Origin: Microlunatus kandeliicorticis
GTDB lineage: Bacteria; Actinomycetota; Actinomycetes; Propionibacteriales; Propionibacteriaceae
Assembly (NCBI RefSeq): GCF_014137855.1
Contig: NZ_JACGWT010000003.1
Span: 1 to 64,000, forward strand
Length of the DNA: 64,000 nucleotides
Direction: 5' to 3'
The position numbers and the translations under genes are program-made. Numbering within the stretch: the stretch's first letter is position 1; each line of letters starts with the position of its first letter. The notes beneath the pieces are model-generated. The model did not search any database and was not told the DNA's origin. It saw nothing but the letters and a program-made list of their open reading frames with translations. Positions 8,818 through 13,529 of this stretch are shown piece by piece.

Positions 8818-10746
8818 TCAGCCGGTGACCAGCGGTCCGGCGTACTCGGCCTCGCGGGCGGCCGCGTCGCGGGTCTGGCCCTCGGCGAACTGGGTCCGGT
8901 AGAGCTCGGCGTAGAGCCCGCCCTCGGCCAGCAGGTCGGCGTGGGTGCCGCGCTGGGCGATCCGGCCGTCGGAGACCACCAGGATCTGGTCGGCCTCGCG
9001 GACGGTGGACAGCCGGTGCGCGATGACGATGCTGGTCCGCCCCTCCATCGCGGTGTCGAGCGCGCGCTGGACGGCCGCCTCCGACTCCGAGTCGAGGTGC
9101 GCGGTGGCCTCGTCGAGCACCACGACCGGCGGCGCCTTGAGCAGCAGCCGGGCGATGGCCAGCCGCTGGCGTTCGCCGCCGGACAGCCGGTAGCCCCGCT
9201 CCCCGACCACCGTCTCGAGACCGTCGGGCAGCCGGTCGACCAGGTCGAGCACCTGGGCCGCGGCCAGCGCCTCGCGCATCTGCGCGTCGGTGGCGTCCGG
9301 GCGGGCGTAGAGCAGGTTGGCGCGGATGGTGTCGTGGAACATGTGCGCGTCCTGGGTGACGTAGCCGACCGCGTGCTGGAGCGAGGCCAGGGTCAGCCCG
9401 CGGACGTCGACGCCCCCGACCTCGACCGTCCCGCCGGTGGTGTCGTAGAGCCGGGCGATCAGGTGGGTGATCGTCGTCTTGCCGGCGCCGGAGGGACCGA
9501 CCAGCGCGACGGTCTGCCCGGGTTCGGCGGTGAAGCTGATGTCGTGCAGCACCGGCTCGTTCGCCCGCTGCTCGACGGTGGCCACCGACTCCAGGCTGGC
9601 CAACGACACCTCGTCGGGCTTGGGATAGGTGAACGCGACGTGGTCGAAGCGCACCGAGGCCGGGCCGGTGTAGTCGCGGGCGTCCTCGGCGTCGGCAATC
9701 ATCGGCGGCAGGTCGAGCACCTCGAAGACCCGCTCGAAGCTGACCAGCGCGGTCATCACGTCGATCCGCAGGTTGGTCAGCTGGGTCAGCGGCCCGTACA
9801 GCCGGACCAGCAGCCCGGACAGCGCGGTCAGGGTGCCGACGGTGAGCGCACCGCGGATCGAGAGGACGCCGCCGACGCCGTAGACCAGCGCGGTGGCCAG
9901 CGCGGCCACCAGCGTCAGCGAGGTCATGAAGATCCGGCCGTTCATGGCGATCGAGACGCTGACGTCGCGCACCGCCCCGGCCCGGCCGGCGAACTGATCA
10001 TGCTCGTCCCGGGGCCGGCCGAACAGCTTGACCAGCAGCGCGCCGCTGACGCTGAACCGCTCGGTCATCGTCTCCGACAGCTCGCCGTTCAGCTGCATCT
10101 GCTGCCGGGTGAGGTCGGCGAGCTTGCGACCCATCAGCCGGGCCGGGATCAGGAACACCGGCAGCATCACCAGCGCGGCCAGGGTCAGCGGCCAGCTGAG
10201 CACCAGCATCGCGGCCAGCACCAGCACCAGGCTGATCAGGTTCGAGACGACCGTGGACAGCGTCGAGGTGAACGCCTGCTGGGCGCCGATCACGTCGGAG
10301 TTGAGCCGGGACACCAGCTTGCCGGTCTGGGTCCGGGTGAAGAAGGCCACCGGCATCCGCGACACGTGGTCGAAGACCCGGGTCCGCAGGTCGTAGATCA
10401 GCCCCTCGCCGATCCGCGAGGACAACCAGCGCTCGACCAGTCCCAGCCCGGCGTCGACCACCGCGAGGACCGCGACCACCACGGCCAGCCCGATCACCAG
10501 GCCGCGGTCACCGGCCAGCACGCCCCGGTCGATGATCTCCTTGAACAGCAGCGGCGGGGTGACCGACAGCGCGGCGTCGATGATCACCAGGACCAGGAAG
10601 CCGACGATCATCCGCCGGAACGGCCGGGCGAAGGCCAGCACCCGGCGCACGAGTCCCGGCGCCAGCCGGTGCCCCTTGGTGTCGACGTCGCGGCCCATCC
10701 GGTACATCACCCGGGCGGCGCCGCCCATGCCTCCGCCCATGCTCAT
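8818..10746 (-). CDS. ABC transporter, fused permease/ATP-binding exporter
   Basis: A 642-aa type IV ABC half-exporter. Residues ~45-330 form the six-helix membrane domain and ~385-620 the ATPase, with Walker A GPSGAGKTT, signature LSGGERQRLAIARLL, Walker B VVVLDEATAHLD and the switch His in IVIAHRLSTV. It resembles actinobacterial multidrug/lipid exporters; the substrate is unknown. It works as a dimer. Start ATG 10746 is set by GGAGGAG five bases upstream; the frame continues upstream without meaning. The N-terminus is glycine-rich (MSMGGGMGGAARVMYRMG). Confidence 0.92.
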   Translation of the reverse strand: MSMGGGMGGAARVMYRMGRDVDTKGHRLAPGLVRRVLAFARPFRRMIVGFLVLVIIDAALSVTPPLLFKEIIDRGVLAGDRGLVIGLAVVVAVLAVVDAGLGLVERWLSSRIGEGLIYDLRTRVFDHVSRMPVAFFTRTQTGKLVSRLNSDVIGAQQAFTSTLSTVVSNLISLVLVLAAMLVLSWPLTLAALVMLPVFLIPARLMGRKLADLTRQQMQLNGELSETMTERFSVSGALLVKLFGRPRDEHDQFAGRAGAVRDVSVSIAMNGRIFMTSLTLVAALATALVYGVGGVLSIRGALTVGTLTALSGLLVRLYGPLTQLTNLRIDVMTALVSFERVFEVLDLPPMIADAEDARDYTGPASVRFDHVAFTYPKPDEVSLASLESVATVEQRANEPVLHDISFTAEPGQTVALVGPSGAGKTTITHLIARLYDTTGGTVEVGGVDVRGLTLASLQHAVGYVTQDAHMFHDTIRANLLYARPDATDAQMREALAAAQVLDLVDRLPDGLETVVGERGYRLSGGERQRLAIARLLLKAPPVVVLDEATAHLDSESEAAVQRALDTAMEGRTSIVIAHRLSTVREADQILVVSDGRIAQRGTHADLLAEGGLYAELYRTQFAEGQTRDAAAREAEYAGPLVTG

Positions 10747-10862
10747 GGCGACTCCTCCCGCGCGAACGCTCCCGACCGGTGACCGTACCCCGCAACCCAA
10801 GACGGCCCGCCGGGATTCCCGGCCGGCCCCACCGCGGCCGGACGTCCCACCGCCCGGGAACG

Positions 10863-10898
10863 CCGACAGGGCCCGGCCGGGTGGCCGGGCCCTGTCGG
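10863..10898 (-). terminator. Perfect 16-bp stem with GGGT loop
   Basis: Arms 10863-10878 and 10883-10898 pair perfectly around a 4-nt loop (10879-10882). The hairpin lies 24 bp past the stop of the HTH/H1-tail gene and before the ABC exporter gene on the same strand, so it should end the former transcript. There is no U-tract, which is usual in actinobacteria. Confidence 0.75.
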
Positions 10899-10921
10899 GG
10901 CTGACGTCGGTACCGCGCGCC

Positions 10922-11743
10922 TCAGCTCTTCTTGGCGGCCTTCTTCGCCGTCTTCTTGGCCGGGGCGGCCTTCTTCGCCGGGGCAGCCTTCGTGGCTGCC
11001 GCCTTCTTGGCGGGCGCGGCCTTGGCGGTGGTCTTCCTGGCCGGGCTGGTGCTCGCCGACTTCGTCGTCGACCTCGCGGCCGACTTGCTCGCCGACTTGC
11101 TCGCCGACTTGGTGGCGCTGGACTTCGTGGCCGCGGACTTCGCGGCGGACTTCGCGGCGCTCTTGGTGGTCGCCCCGGTCTGCTTGGTGGCGGTCTTGCG
11201 GGCCGGGGTCGAGGACTTGGTGGCCGGGCTCGACGACCGCTTGGCCGCGCCGGTGGCCTTGCGGGTCGCGGACGACGTGCTCGCCGCGGAGGTGCCGGTG
11301 GCCTTCGTCGCCGCCGCCTTGGTCGCGCTCCTGCCGGTCGACTTCGCGGCCGACTTCGCCGGGGTCGACTTGGCGGTCGACTTCGTGGCCGTCGACTTGG
11401 TGGCCGTCGACTTCGAGGCGGTCGACTTGCTGGCCGTCGACTTGCTGGCCGGGCTGGAGACCTTCTTGGCGCTCGAGGTCTTCGCGGCGCCGGCGCTCTT
11501 GCGAGCGGACGCGGTGCCGCCCGCGGAGGCGGCCTTCTTGGCCCCCCGGGTCGCTCCGCCGCGACCGCGGAGCCCGATCCCGGCCTCGGTGAGCACACCG
11601 TGGACGAAGCCGTACGACCGTCCCGCGTCGTCGGCGATCTTCCGGATGCTCTCGCCGGCCGCGTACCGCTTGGCGAACTGTGTCGCCAGGGTCGCCCGCT
11701 GTGCACCGGTGATCCGAGAACCCTTGGCTAGAGCCTTGGCCAC
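10922..11743 (-). CDS. HTH protein with a long histone-H1-like tail
   Basis: A 273-aa protein. Residues 1-70 form the small conserved actinobacterial HTH domain (KGSRITGAQRATLATQFA, then SIRKIADDAGRSYGFVHGVL, ending LRGRGGATRG). In mycobacteria and streptomycetes this is a ~65-75-aa stand-alone protein next to an ABC-F gene (Rv1473A beside Rv1473), the same context as here. Residues ~70-273 are almost only Lys, Ala, Ser, Thr with repeats such as SKSTA and PAKKA, like the C-terminal domain of histone H1 or HU-H1 fusions. A nucleoid-associated or DNA-compacting role is inferred. GTG 11743 has AGGAGGAAGC directly upstream. Confidence 0.85.
   Translation of the reverse strand: MAKALAKGSRITGAQRATLATQFAKRYAAGESIRKIADDAGRSYGFVHGVLTEAGIGLRGRGGATRGAKKAASAGGTASARKSAGAAKTSSAKKVSSPASKSTASKSTASKSTATKSTATKSTAKSTPAKSAAKSTGRSATKAAATKATGTSAASTSSATRKATGAAKRSSSPATKSSTPARKTATKQTGATTKSAAKSAAKSAATKSSATKSASKSASKSAARSTTKSASTSPARKTTAKAAPAKKAAATKAAPAKKAAPAKKTAKKAAKKS
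11376..11450 (-). repeat. Five tandem 15-bp coding repeats in the H1-like tail
   Basis: Units beginning GTCGACTT start at 11376, 11391, 11406, 11421 and 11436. Each encodes a five-residue block such as SKSTA or TKSTA. Near-exact period suggests growth by slippage or unequal recombination, so tail length may vary between strains. Confidence 0.8.
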
Positions 11744-11836
11744 GCTTCCTCCTGGACAGTCTCCGTGTCGCCGACCACGCCGCCGGGCAACCCCGTGGGA
11801 CCAATGATCGACTTTCCATGATCACTCGGCAATCGT

Positions 11837-11861
11837 TTGGGCCAGATTCGCCCAACTTTTT
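11837..11861 (+). terminator. Rightward hairpin plus T-run in the HTH gene upstream region
   Basis: TTGGGC (11837-11842) pairs with GCCCAA (11850-11855), followed by C and five T on the plus strand. This is a textbook intrinsic terminator shape pointing right, although both flanking genes are on the minus strand. It could stop antisense transcripts coming out of the HTH gene toward the ABC-F gene. The rest of 11744-11930 holds the HTH gene's ribosome binding site and presumably its promoter; nothing else is clear. Confidence 0.4.
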
Positions 11862-11930
11862 GTCCGGACGAAGTCCGATGATCAGCTGCCGACGCCCCGT
11901 CCGGGCGGGCGGCCGGAGCCCGGAGCGGGC

Positions 11931-13529
<1,599 letters not shown>

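Follow-up and report, generated by a model that had tools for sequence, protein, structure and literature searches.

The window, the whole stretch of 64,000 nucleotides analysed from Microlunatus kandeliicorticis, carries at 10922-11743 on the minus strand a gene that forms a single open reading frame of 273 residues with a GTG start in the ORF list. Directly upstream, in the same orientation, is an ABC-F ATPase gene, separated from it by an intergenic stretch of 187 bp (11744-11930), in which three GATCAT motifs all point in the direction of the gene. The locus is composed of the following features:

11931..13529, minus strand: gene for an ABC-F ATPase, upstream and co-oriented, a neighbour conserved in relatives (ORF list and relatives)
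11878..11883, minus strand: GATCAT, putative Gbn site, distal
11818..11823, minus strand: GATCAT, a second putative Gbn site, at a 14-bp spacing that is repeated in relatives
11804..11809, minus strand: GATCAT, of the putative Gbn sites ahead of the gene the one closest to the start, with the next site 14 bp away
11748..11753, minus strand: Shine-Dalgarno AGGAGG, 4 nt 5' of the GTG start (read from the sequence)
10922..11743, minus strand: complete gene of a tailed Gbn-family (HTH_58) protein, 273 aa (ORF list and Pfam)
11546..11731, minus strand: HTH_58 (PF19575) domain, residues 5-66, with predicted helices at 13-28, 33-40 and 44-53 (Pfam and AlphaFold2)
10925..11545, minus strand: Lys/Ala/Ser/Thr tail of 207 residues, with no acidic residue and no predicted structure (composition and AlphaFold2)
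10863..10898, minus strand: hairpin directly past the stop codon, 16-bp stem and 4-nt loop, a probable terminator without a T-run (fold)

A promoter scan of 10700-12000 returned no sigma-70-like site, and Rfam gave no match within 10700-12100.

The N-terminal domain matches Pfam HTH_58 with an E-value of 7.6e-29 and 99.9 bits, well past the gathering score of 23.8, and is the one HTH_58 match found by domain search in this genome. The Pfam scan of the protein returned, besides this domain, only a weak HTH_38 match, and none to the HU fold (PF00216). AlphaFold2 models the three helices with a pLDDT of 75-88 by blocks and assigns no structure to the tail, where block values are mostly below 55. 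The 207 residues past residue 66 consist of 63 Ala, 43 Ser, 42 Lys, 34 Thr, 8 Gly, 8 Pro, 7 Arg, 1 Gln and 1 Val, giving an excess of K+R over D+E of +49; the computed pI of the whole protein, 12.0, is presumably the ceiling of the pI program. In length and absence of acidic residues the tail has the character of the long, acid-poor Lys/Ala C-terminal tails of the HU/H1-like class. Single lysines spaced by Ser, Thr or Ala predominate: KK occurs only 7 times, PAKK 3 times and KAAK once. The preliminary description of this DNA had reported an HTH domain joined to a tail of ~200 Lys/Ala/Ser/Thr residues with internal repeats, located beside an ABC-F gene; the fusion and the gene order are as described, and the repeats are tandem, with periods of 12-27 bp in the tail DNA.

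A frameshift, a mis-called frame or an assembly artefact could in principle have joined an unrelated frame to an ordinary protein of 70 residues. The repeats make mis-assembly conceivable, and opposite-strand frames are open as well. Against this, the G+C content at codon positions 1, 2 and 3 of the tail is 0.41, 0.79 and 0.99, and the value at the third position identifies the minus-strand frame as the coding frame; the ORFs on the plus strand across the gene are taken as mirror by-products. Tails are also present in further same-genus genomes, several of which are assembled as a single contig. The preliminary description had itself named a frameshift as fatal to its reading; for the lineage this is excluded because orthologues in other genomes carry tails, and we regard an artefact as extremely improbable.

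The domain belongs to a family characterized in Streptomyces. Gbn (SCO1839), described by Du et al. 2022 (PMC9239103), is a protein of 73 aa, 7.6 kDa and pI 10.53 with one HTH and short flanks. It is reported there as a GATC-binding nucleoid-associated protein with the site GATC(A/T)T, about 2,800 ChIP regions in S. coelicolor and eight GATC in the promoter stretch from -561 to -239 of its own gene; it is described as changing DNA conformation minimally and affecting transcription. SCO1839 had earlier been a candidate in S. coelicolor nucleoid proteomics (PMC3784963). One orthologue in our set, L193, from a 7.8-Mb genome, has 73 aa, 7.67 kDa, pI 10.53 and 8 GATC in -561..-239; these values agree with those published for Gbn, and we infer that L193 is a Streptomyces-type Gbn. 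The window protein and L193 are identical at 42 of 67 residues, among them the stretch GRSYGFVH, which falls at the predicted third helix, and each of the two genes is preceded by a co-oriented ABC-F gene. Linked through L193, the window protein is probably an orthologue of Gbn. The two are alike in their HTH, their basic character and the GATC sites upstream of their own genes, and differ in that Gbn has short HTH flanks where the window protein has a 207-aa polycation tail. At 273 aa it is neither very small nor short-flanked, and is thus a variant rather than a standard Gbn/HTH_58 member.

Other comparisons were less informative. A sequence search of the PDB gave a single insignificant match (WhiB3, E 0.24), and phage sequences gave none. 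Foldseek returned 373 matches at E up to 10, none below 0.001, and the best 50 of the 373 were mainly DNA-binding regulators. The top-ranked Foldseek match, again insignificant (E 0.73), was PDB 2lvs, a structure of the archaeal CRISPR-repeat-binding protein Cbp1. A weak HTH likeness to Cbp1 (NF040595) also appears in NCBIfam, at 24.1 bits, far below the cut-off of 140; that profile is longer (135 positions) and describes CRISPR-repeat binders, and we claim no family tie. Separately, a 290-aa open frame in another genome (L026/L031, G012:C14) contains two HTH_58-like matches and recalls the multi-HTH Cbp1. Actinobacterial topoisomerase I also acts on DNA and has a lysine-repeat C-terminus, but is an enzyme (PMC7398561).

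In a class-wide search HTH_58 was found in 214 of 344 genomes, and in a search of the window's family, taken as Propionibacteriaceae, in 70 of 177 genomes. Because the open-frame lengths of the class-wide search overstate protein length, proteins were read as sequences, with start codons of orthologues set by a rule of our own and a sequence pattern used to place the domain ends. In the window's genus, 17 of the 19 proteins read, the window's included, extend at least 40 residues past the domain. Eleven of these tails have less than 3% D+E and six are mixed, with 6-15% D+E. Two members (G007 and G112) have no tail and end about 10 residues past the domain, and a further genome (G003) gave no HTH_58 match. 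Across the genus the post-domain length ranges from 10 to 253 residues, and the tail sequence is not conserved.

Elsewhere in the family 39 proteins were read, and 27 of them have tails by the same measure. In the family as a whole the tails come in several kinds, some holding 6-22% acidic residues. Acid-free Lys/Ala tails are found in three of the 39 proteins (L153, L154, L171), and a fourth (L170) is near 3% D+E. In L153 and L154, given the chosen start codon, Lys/Ala/Thr-rich extensions flank the HTH on its N-terminal as well as its C-terminal side. Thirteen proteins of genera g7 and g14 (L172-L183, L185) have a different tail, which on visual inspection resembles mixed-charge helical repeats; their HTH has diverged, and their 13 upstreams hold two GATCWT in total. 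Genus g12 has tails in none of the six proteins read. Among the 39, four apparent paralogues without an ABC-F neighbour (L187, L190-L192) were scored tail-less. Of the loci cut at a contig end, L163 was scored tail-less, L171 tailed, and L023 tailed, the last being absent from upstream counts. Weak or partial HTH_58 places were left out (L024-L031; G185, G181, G177, G176, G065, G039, G131, G125, G062, G092, G154, G169 and second weak places), and four pairs of records are duplicates (L014=L032, L018=L033, L023=L111, L203=L109).

Outside the family, none of the 77 named loci (L034-L110; 71-73 aa) and none of the four sister-family loci (71-72 aa) encodes a tail. Thirty further proteins of the class were read from 33 genomes chosen among the matches listed, a choice guided in part by low scores or long frames; one of them is tailed (L217, 161 aa) and the others have 67-76 aa. 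L217 (G513, family f30) bears a Lys/Ala/Pro tail, and its relative G227 combines a tailed HU with a 73-aa Gbn; the L217 tail appears to be an independent gain. Judged from the proteins read, the tail was added in Propionibacteriaceae, and L217 is the one independent case among 30 proteins from other families. The survey by lineage proposed in the preliminary description thus places tails predominantly in this family, L217 being the sole outside case; its statement that the HTH gene normally encodes 65-75 residues stands for the proteins read outside the family, with the single exception in 30, and fails inside it, where tails of several kinds are common.

The gene order is widely shared, an ABC-F match being found at 163 of the 173 loci examined, a count that includes duplicate and weak rows; one of these matches is oppositely oriented (L156), and one is a 30% match to another place (L219). 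The HTH_58 matches listed include no genome of f2 or f3, two families belonging to the same order; in f3, the HU loci L116 and L138 encode long Lys-rich tails. In a plasmid collection, Gbn-like HTH stretches of less than 60% identity were seen in ten Streptomyces records, likely plasmid-borne Gbn paralogues, and in one Nonomuraea record of 11.9 Mb, which by its size is a chromosome.

The GATCAT motifs before the window gene belong to a pattern that recurs in the genus. Judged against the window by itself the count is no more than mildly unusual, since 1.2% of its 250-bp stretches hold as many GATCWT, but across the genus the signal is strong. The 250-bp upstreams of 18 same-genus Gbn genes contain 71 GATCWT, 53 of them in the sense direction, with at least one in 14 of the 18; CATGWT occurs 31 times, CATG partly overlapping GATCATG, and six other palindromes of equal composition 0-3 times. 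The mean is 3.94 GATCWT per Gbn upstream (18 regions) versus 0.29 per HU upstream of the same genus (24 regions out of 25 attempted, with some genomes represented twice), with a one-sided P of 1.4e-5 from a test that ignores relatedness. The motif is absent from four of the 18 upstreams (L010, L015, L021, L155), two of which precede tailed genes. Spacings of 7 bp and of 14 bp each occur in 11 of 21 upstreams, a recurrence probably due in part to common descent. In other genera of the family, 33 distinct upstreams hold 19 GATCWT versus 7 CATGWT. The window as a whole contains 76 GATCWT versus 17.7 expected from dinucleotide shuffles; since codon choice can produce such an excess, it was not used as evidence. 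PF02086 has no match in the window's own genome, which makes Dam-type GATC methylation unlikely.

As indirect evidence, these arrays make GATC(A/T)T the putative site of the tailed form. The preliminary description had called the domain a specific reader and named the family after Rv1473A, the M. tuberculosis homologue, which it called short. The gene for Rv1473A follows Rv1473, an ABC-F gene. The idea of a specific reader gains a putative site from the upstream arrays, and is countered by the Rv1473A EMSA, reported without specific binding (PMC9953421).

In its tail the protein resembles HU. The HU proteins of actinobacteria, such as mycobacterial HupB and Streptomyces HupS, share a C-terminal Lys/Ala/Pro/Thr tail with the window protein, and differ from it in that the HU fold binds with little sequence specificity, whereas the window protein has an HTH. 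The HupB tail is described as indispensable for nucleoid association, with PAKK/KAAK motifs like those of H1/H5 (PMC5676037). HupS is reported to be acetylated, its tail included, with acetylation reducing DNA binding and compaction falling when the deacetylase is lost (PMC11229371). In the window's own genome HU ends in a tail of 157 residues that is like the Gbn tail in kind, and the histone-like tail noted at first in one gene belongs to a lineage.

HU was compared in 48 genomes, using the longest HU tail of each; five had no HU match (G082, G080, G085, G123, G036). In the remaining 43, acid-free tails were present on both proteins in 15 genomes, on Gbn only in none, on HU only in six, and in 22 genomes neither protein had one; for the genus alone, the same four counts are 11, 0, 0 and 8. 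Viewed from Gbn, 16 genomes with an acid-free Gbn tail had their HU examined, and the HU tail is acid-free in 15, the other (G123) having no HU match. Relatedness accounts for part of this association, which reflects few evolutionary events, and since Fisher P values ignore relatedness, we relied on a tree and a partial Mantel test. On an ABC-F tree of 32 chosen genomes (G015 and G007 were dropped for a short ABC-F), the joint tail label needs 4 changes, versus 10 in shuffles. With ABC-F distance taken into account, the two tails still show a correlation in composition (partial Mantel r 0.40, P 0.0035, 17 genomes). In a sister contrast, G112 lacks both tails and its sister G004 has both, of the mixed kind. 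The match is not tight for individual genomes: the composition rank of the own HU is moderate (mean 4.8, expected 9; 8th of 17 for the window genome). Tail lengths of Gbn and HU give a rho of 0.17 (P 0.27) over the 43 genomes and 0.83 in the genus (19). In one genome (G010; L020, L119) the Gbn tail is built of KDSKGKDSKGK repeats and the HU tail of KADSKKADSKK repeats, both acidic-mixed.

At the DNA level, the Gbn and HU tails of the same genome share more words than permuted pairs do, in 17 genomes and with relatedness ignored: 0.085 versus 0.060 for 12-mers (P 0.002), 0.035 versus 0.017 for 15-mers (P 0.0016) and 0.014 versus 0.006 for 18-mers (P 0.007). Sharing with the own HU gives the highest value of its row in no more than 2, 1 and 2 of 17 genomes for the three word lengths, and the window genome has no 12-mer excess (own 0.044, others 0.052). 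Copying or common codon habits could cause part of the likeness between the tails. The Gbn tail could have been copied from HU by recombination; the sharing of words is small, and similar codon and residue use could explain it. The HU tail may be the background that makes a Gbn tail useful.

What the tail does for the protein allows several readings. The one we consider probable is that of a sequence-addressed nucleoid protein of the Gbn family, which reads GATC(A/T)T through its HTH, represses its own gene through the array and condenses DNA through a tail of the HU/H1 type. The N-terminal three-helix HTH would bind GATC(A/T)T sites, among them the array before its own gene, where the outcome would probably be self-repression. 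The disordered, acid-free polycation tail would add electrostatic DNA contacts that do not depend on sequence, in the manner of actinobacterial HU with its H1-like tails, and would raise affinity and residence time; molecules anchored at GATC sites could then bridge or compact nearby DNA through the tail. Points against this reading are the upstreams without GATCWT, the Rv1473A EMSA, the few evolutionary events behind the HU association, the words shared between Gbn-tail and HU-tail DNA, and the distribution of the protein, with two tail-less genomes and one unmatched genome in the genus and HTH_58 matches in only 70 of the family's 177 genomes. A more ambitious version, which seems possible but unlikely, makes the protein an analogue of linker histones, with the HTH anchoring it at GATCWT genome-wide, the HU/H1-type tail condensing the DNA, and the tails of Gbn and HU co-evolving as a shared electrostatic system.

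The tail may also be a tolerated low-complexity expansion with no selected function, the HTH alone doing the work. Slippage of the 12-27-bp repeats in G+C-rich DNA, perhaps aided by exchange with the HU tail, would supply the mechanism, and the tandem repeats, the wide range of lengths, the unconserved sequence, the tail-less members G007 and G112 and the 12-mer sharing within genomes (seen in the set, not in the window genome) are all compatible with it. A neutral expansion should let charge drift as the sequence changes, and for this reason the acid-free tails (no D/E in 207 residues, less than 3% in 11 of 19 in the genus) count against it. The rarity of tails outside the family, at 1/30 of the chosen proteins, 0/77 named loci and 0/4 sister-family loci, and the covariation of tail chemistry with HU point the same way, so that we hold this explanation to be rather unlikely. 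A protein acting as a local regulator would be mainly a repressor, through GATCWT arrays, of its own gene and some promoters, the tail only tuning affinity or serving as an acetylation switch with no architectural role. It draws on the dense arrays upstream of the gene, on the transcriptional effect and minimal conformational change reported for short Gbn (PMC9239103) and on the reduced DNA binding of acetylated HupS (PMC11229371). The tail, however, is of the HU kind, and the roughly 2,800 regions of Gbn in S. coelicolor (PMC9239103) make a purely local role unlikely if specificity is kept; we find it more doubtful still than expansion.

The sequence-addressed nucleoid protein that we favour differs in one respect from the preliminary description, which had the tail converting a presumed regulator into a nucleoid protein. 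Short Gbn is already a published nucleoid-associated protein (PMC9239103), so the tail is not what makes the family nucleoid proteins. Because short Gbn hardly changes DNA conformation, compaction would depend wholly on the tail, which the preliminary description called charge-neutralising and which probably gives a DNA-packing role to a chromosome protein that is otherwise a mild sequence reader. What appears new is the HU/H1-type tail on Gbn, short Gbn being already known as a sequence-specific nucleoid protein. The preliminary description knew of no such tail on this HTH, and in the open-licence literature we likewise found neither a tailed Gbn/HTH_58 protein nor wet data on a tailed member.

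The natural series of orthologues, with no tail, acidic-mixed tails and acid-free tails, constitutes a comparative system in which to ask what a DNA reader gains from a lysine-rich tail. Within the genus, HU tails vary in step with Gbn tails, which opens the interchangeability of tails between nucleoid proteins to test, and GATCWT offers a testable site for the Gbn family outside Streptomyces. If the linker-histone analogy were true, chromatin compaction in the family would be positioned by a six-base code, perhaps with acetylation in common.
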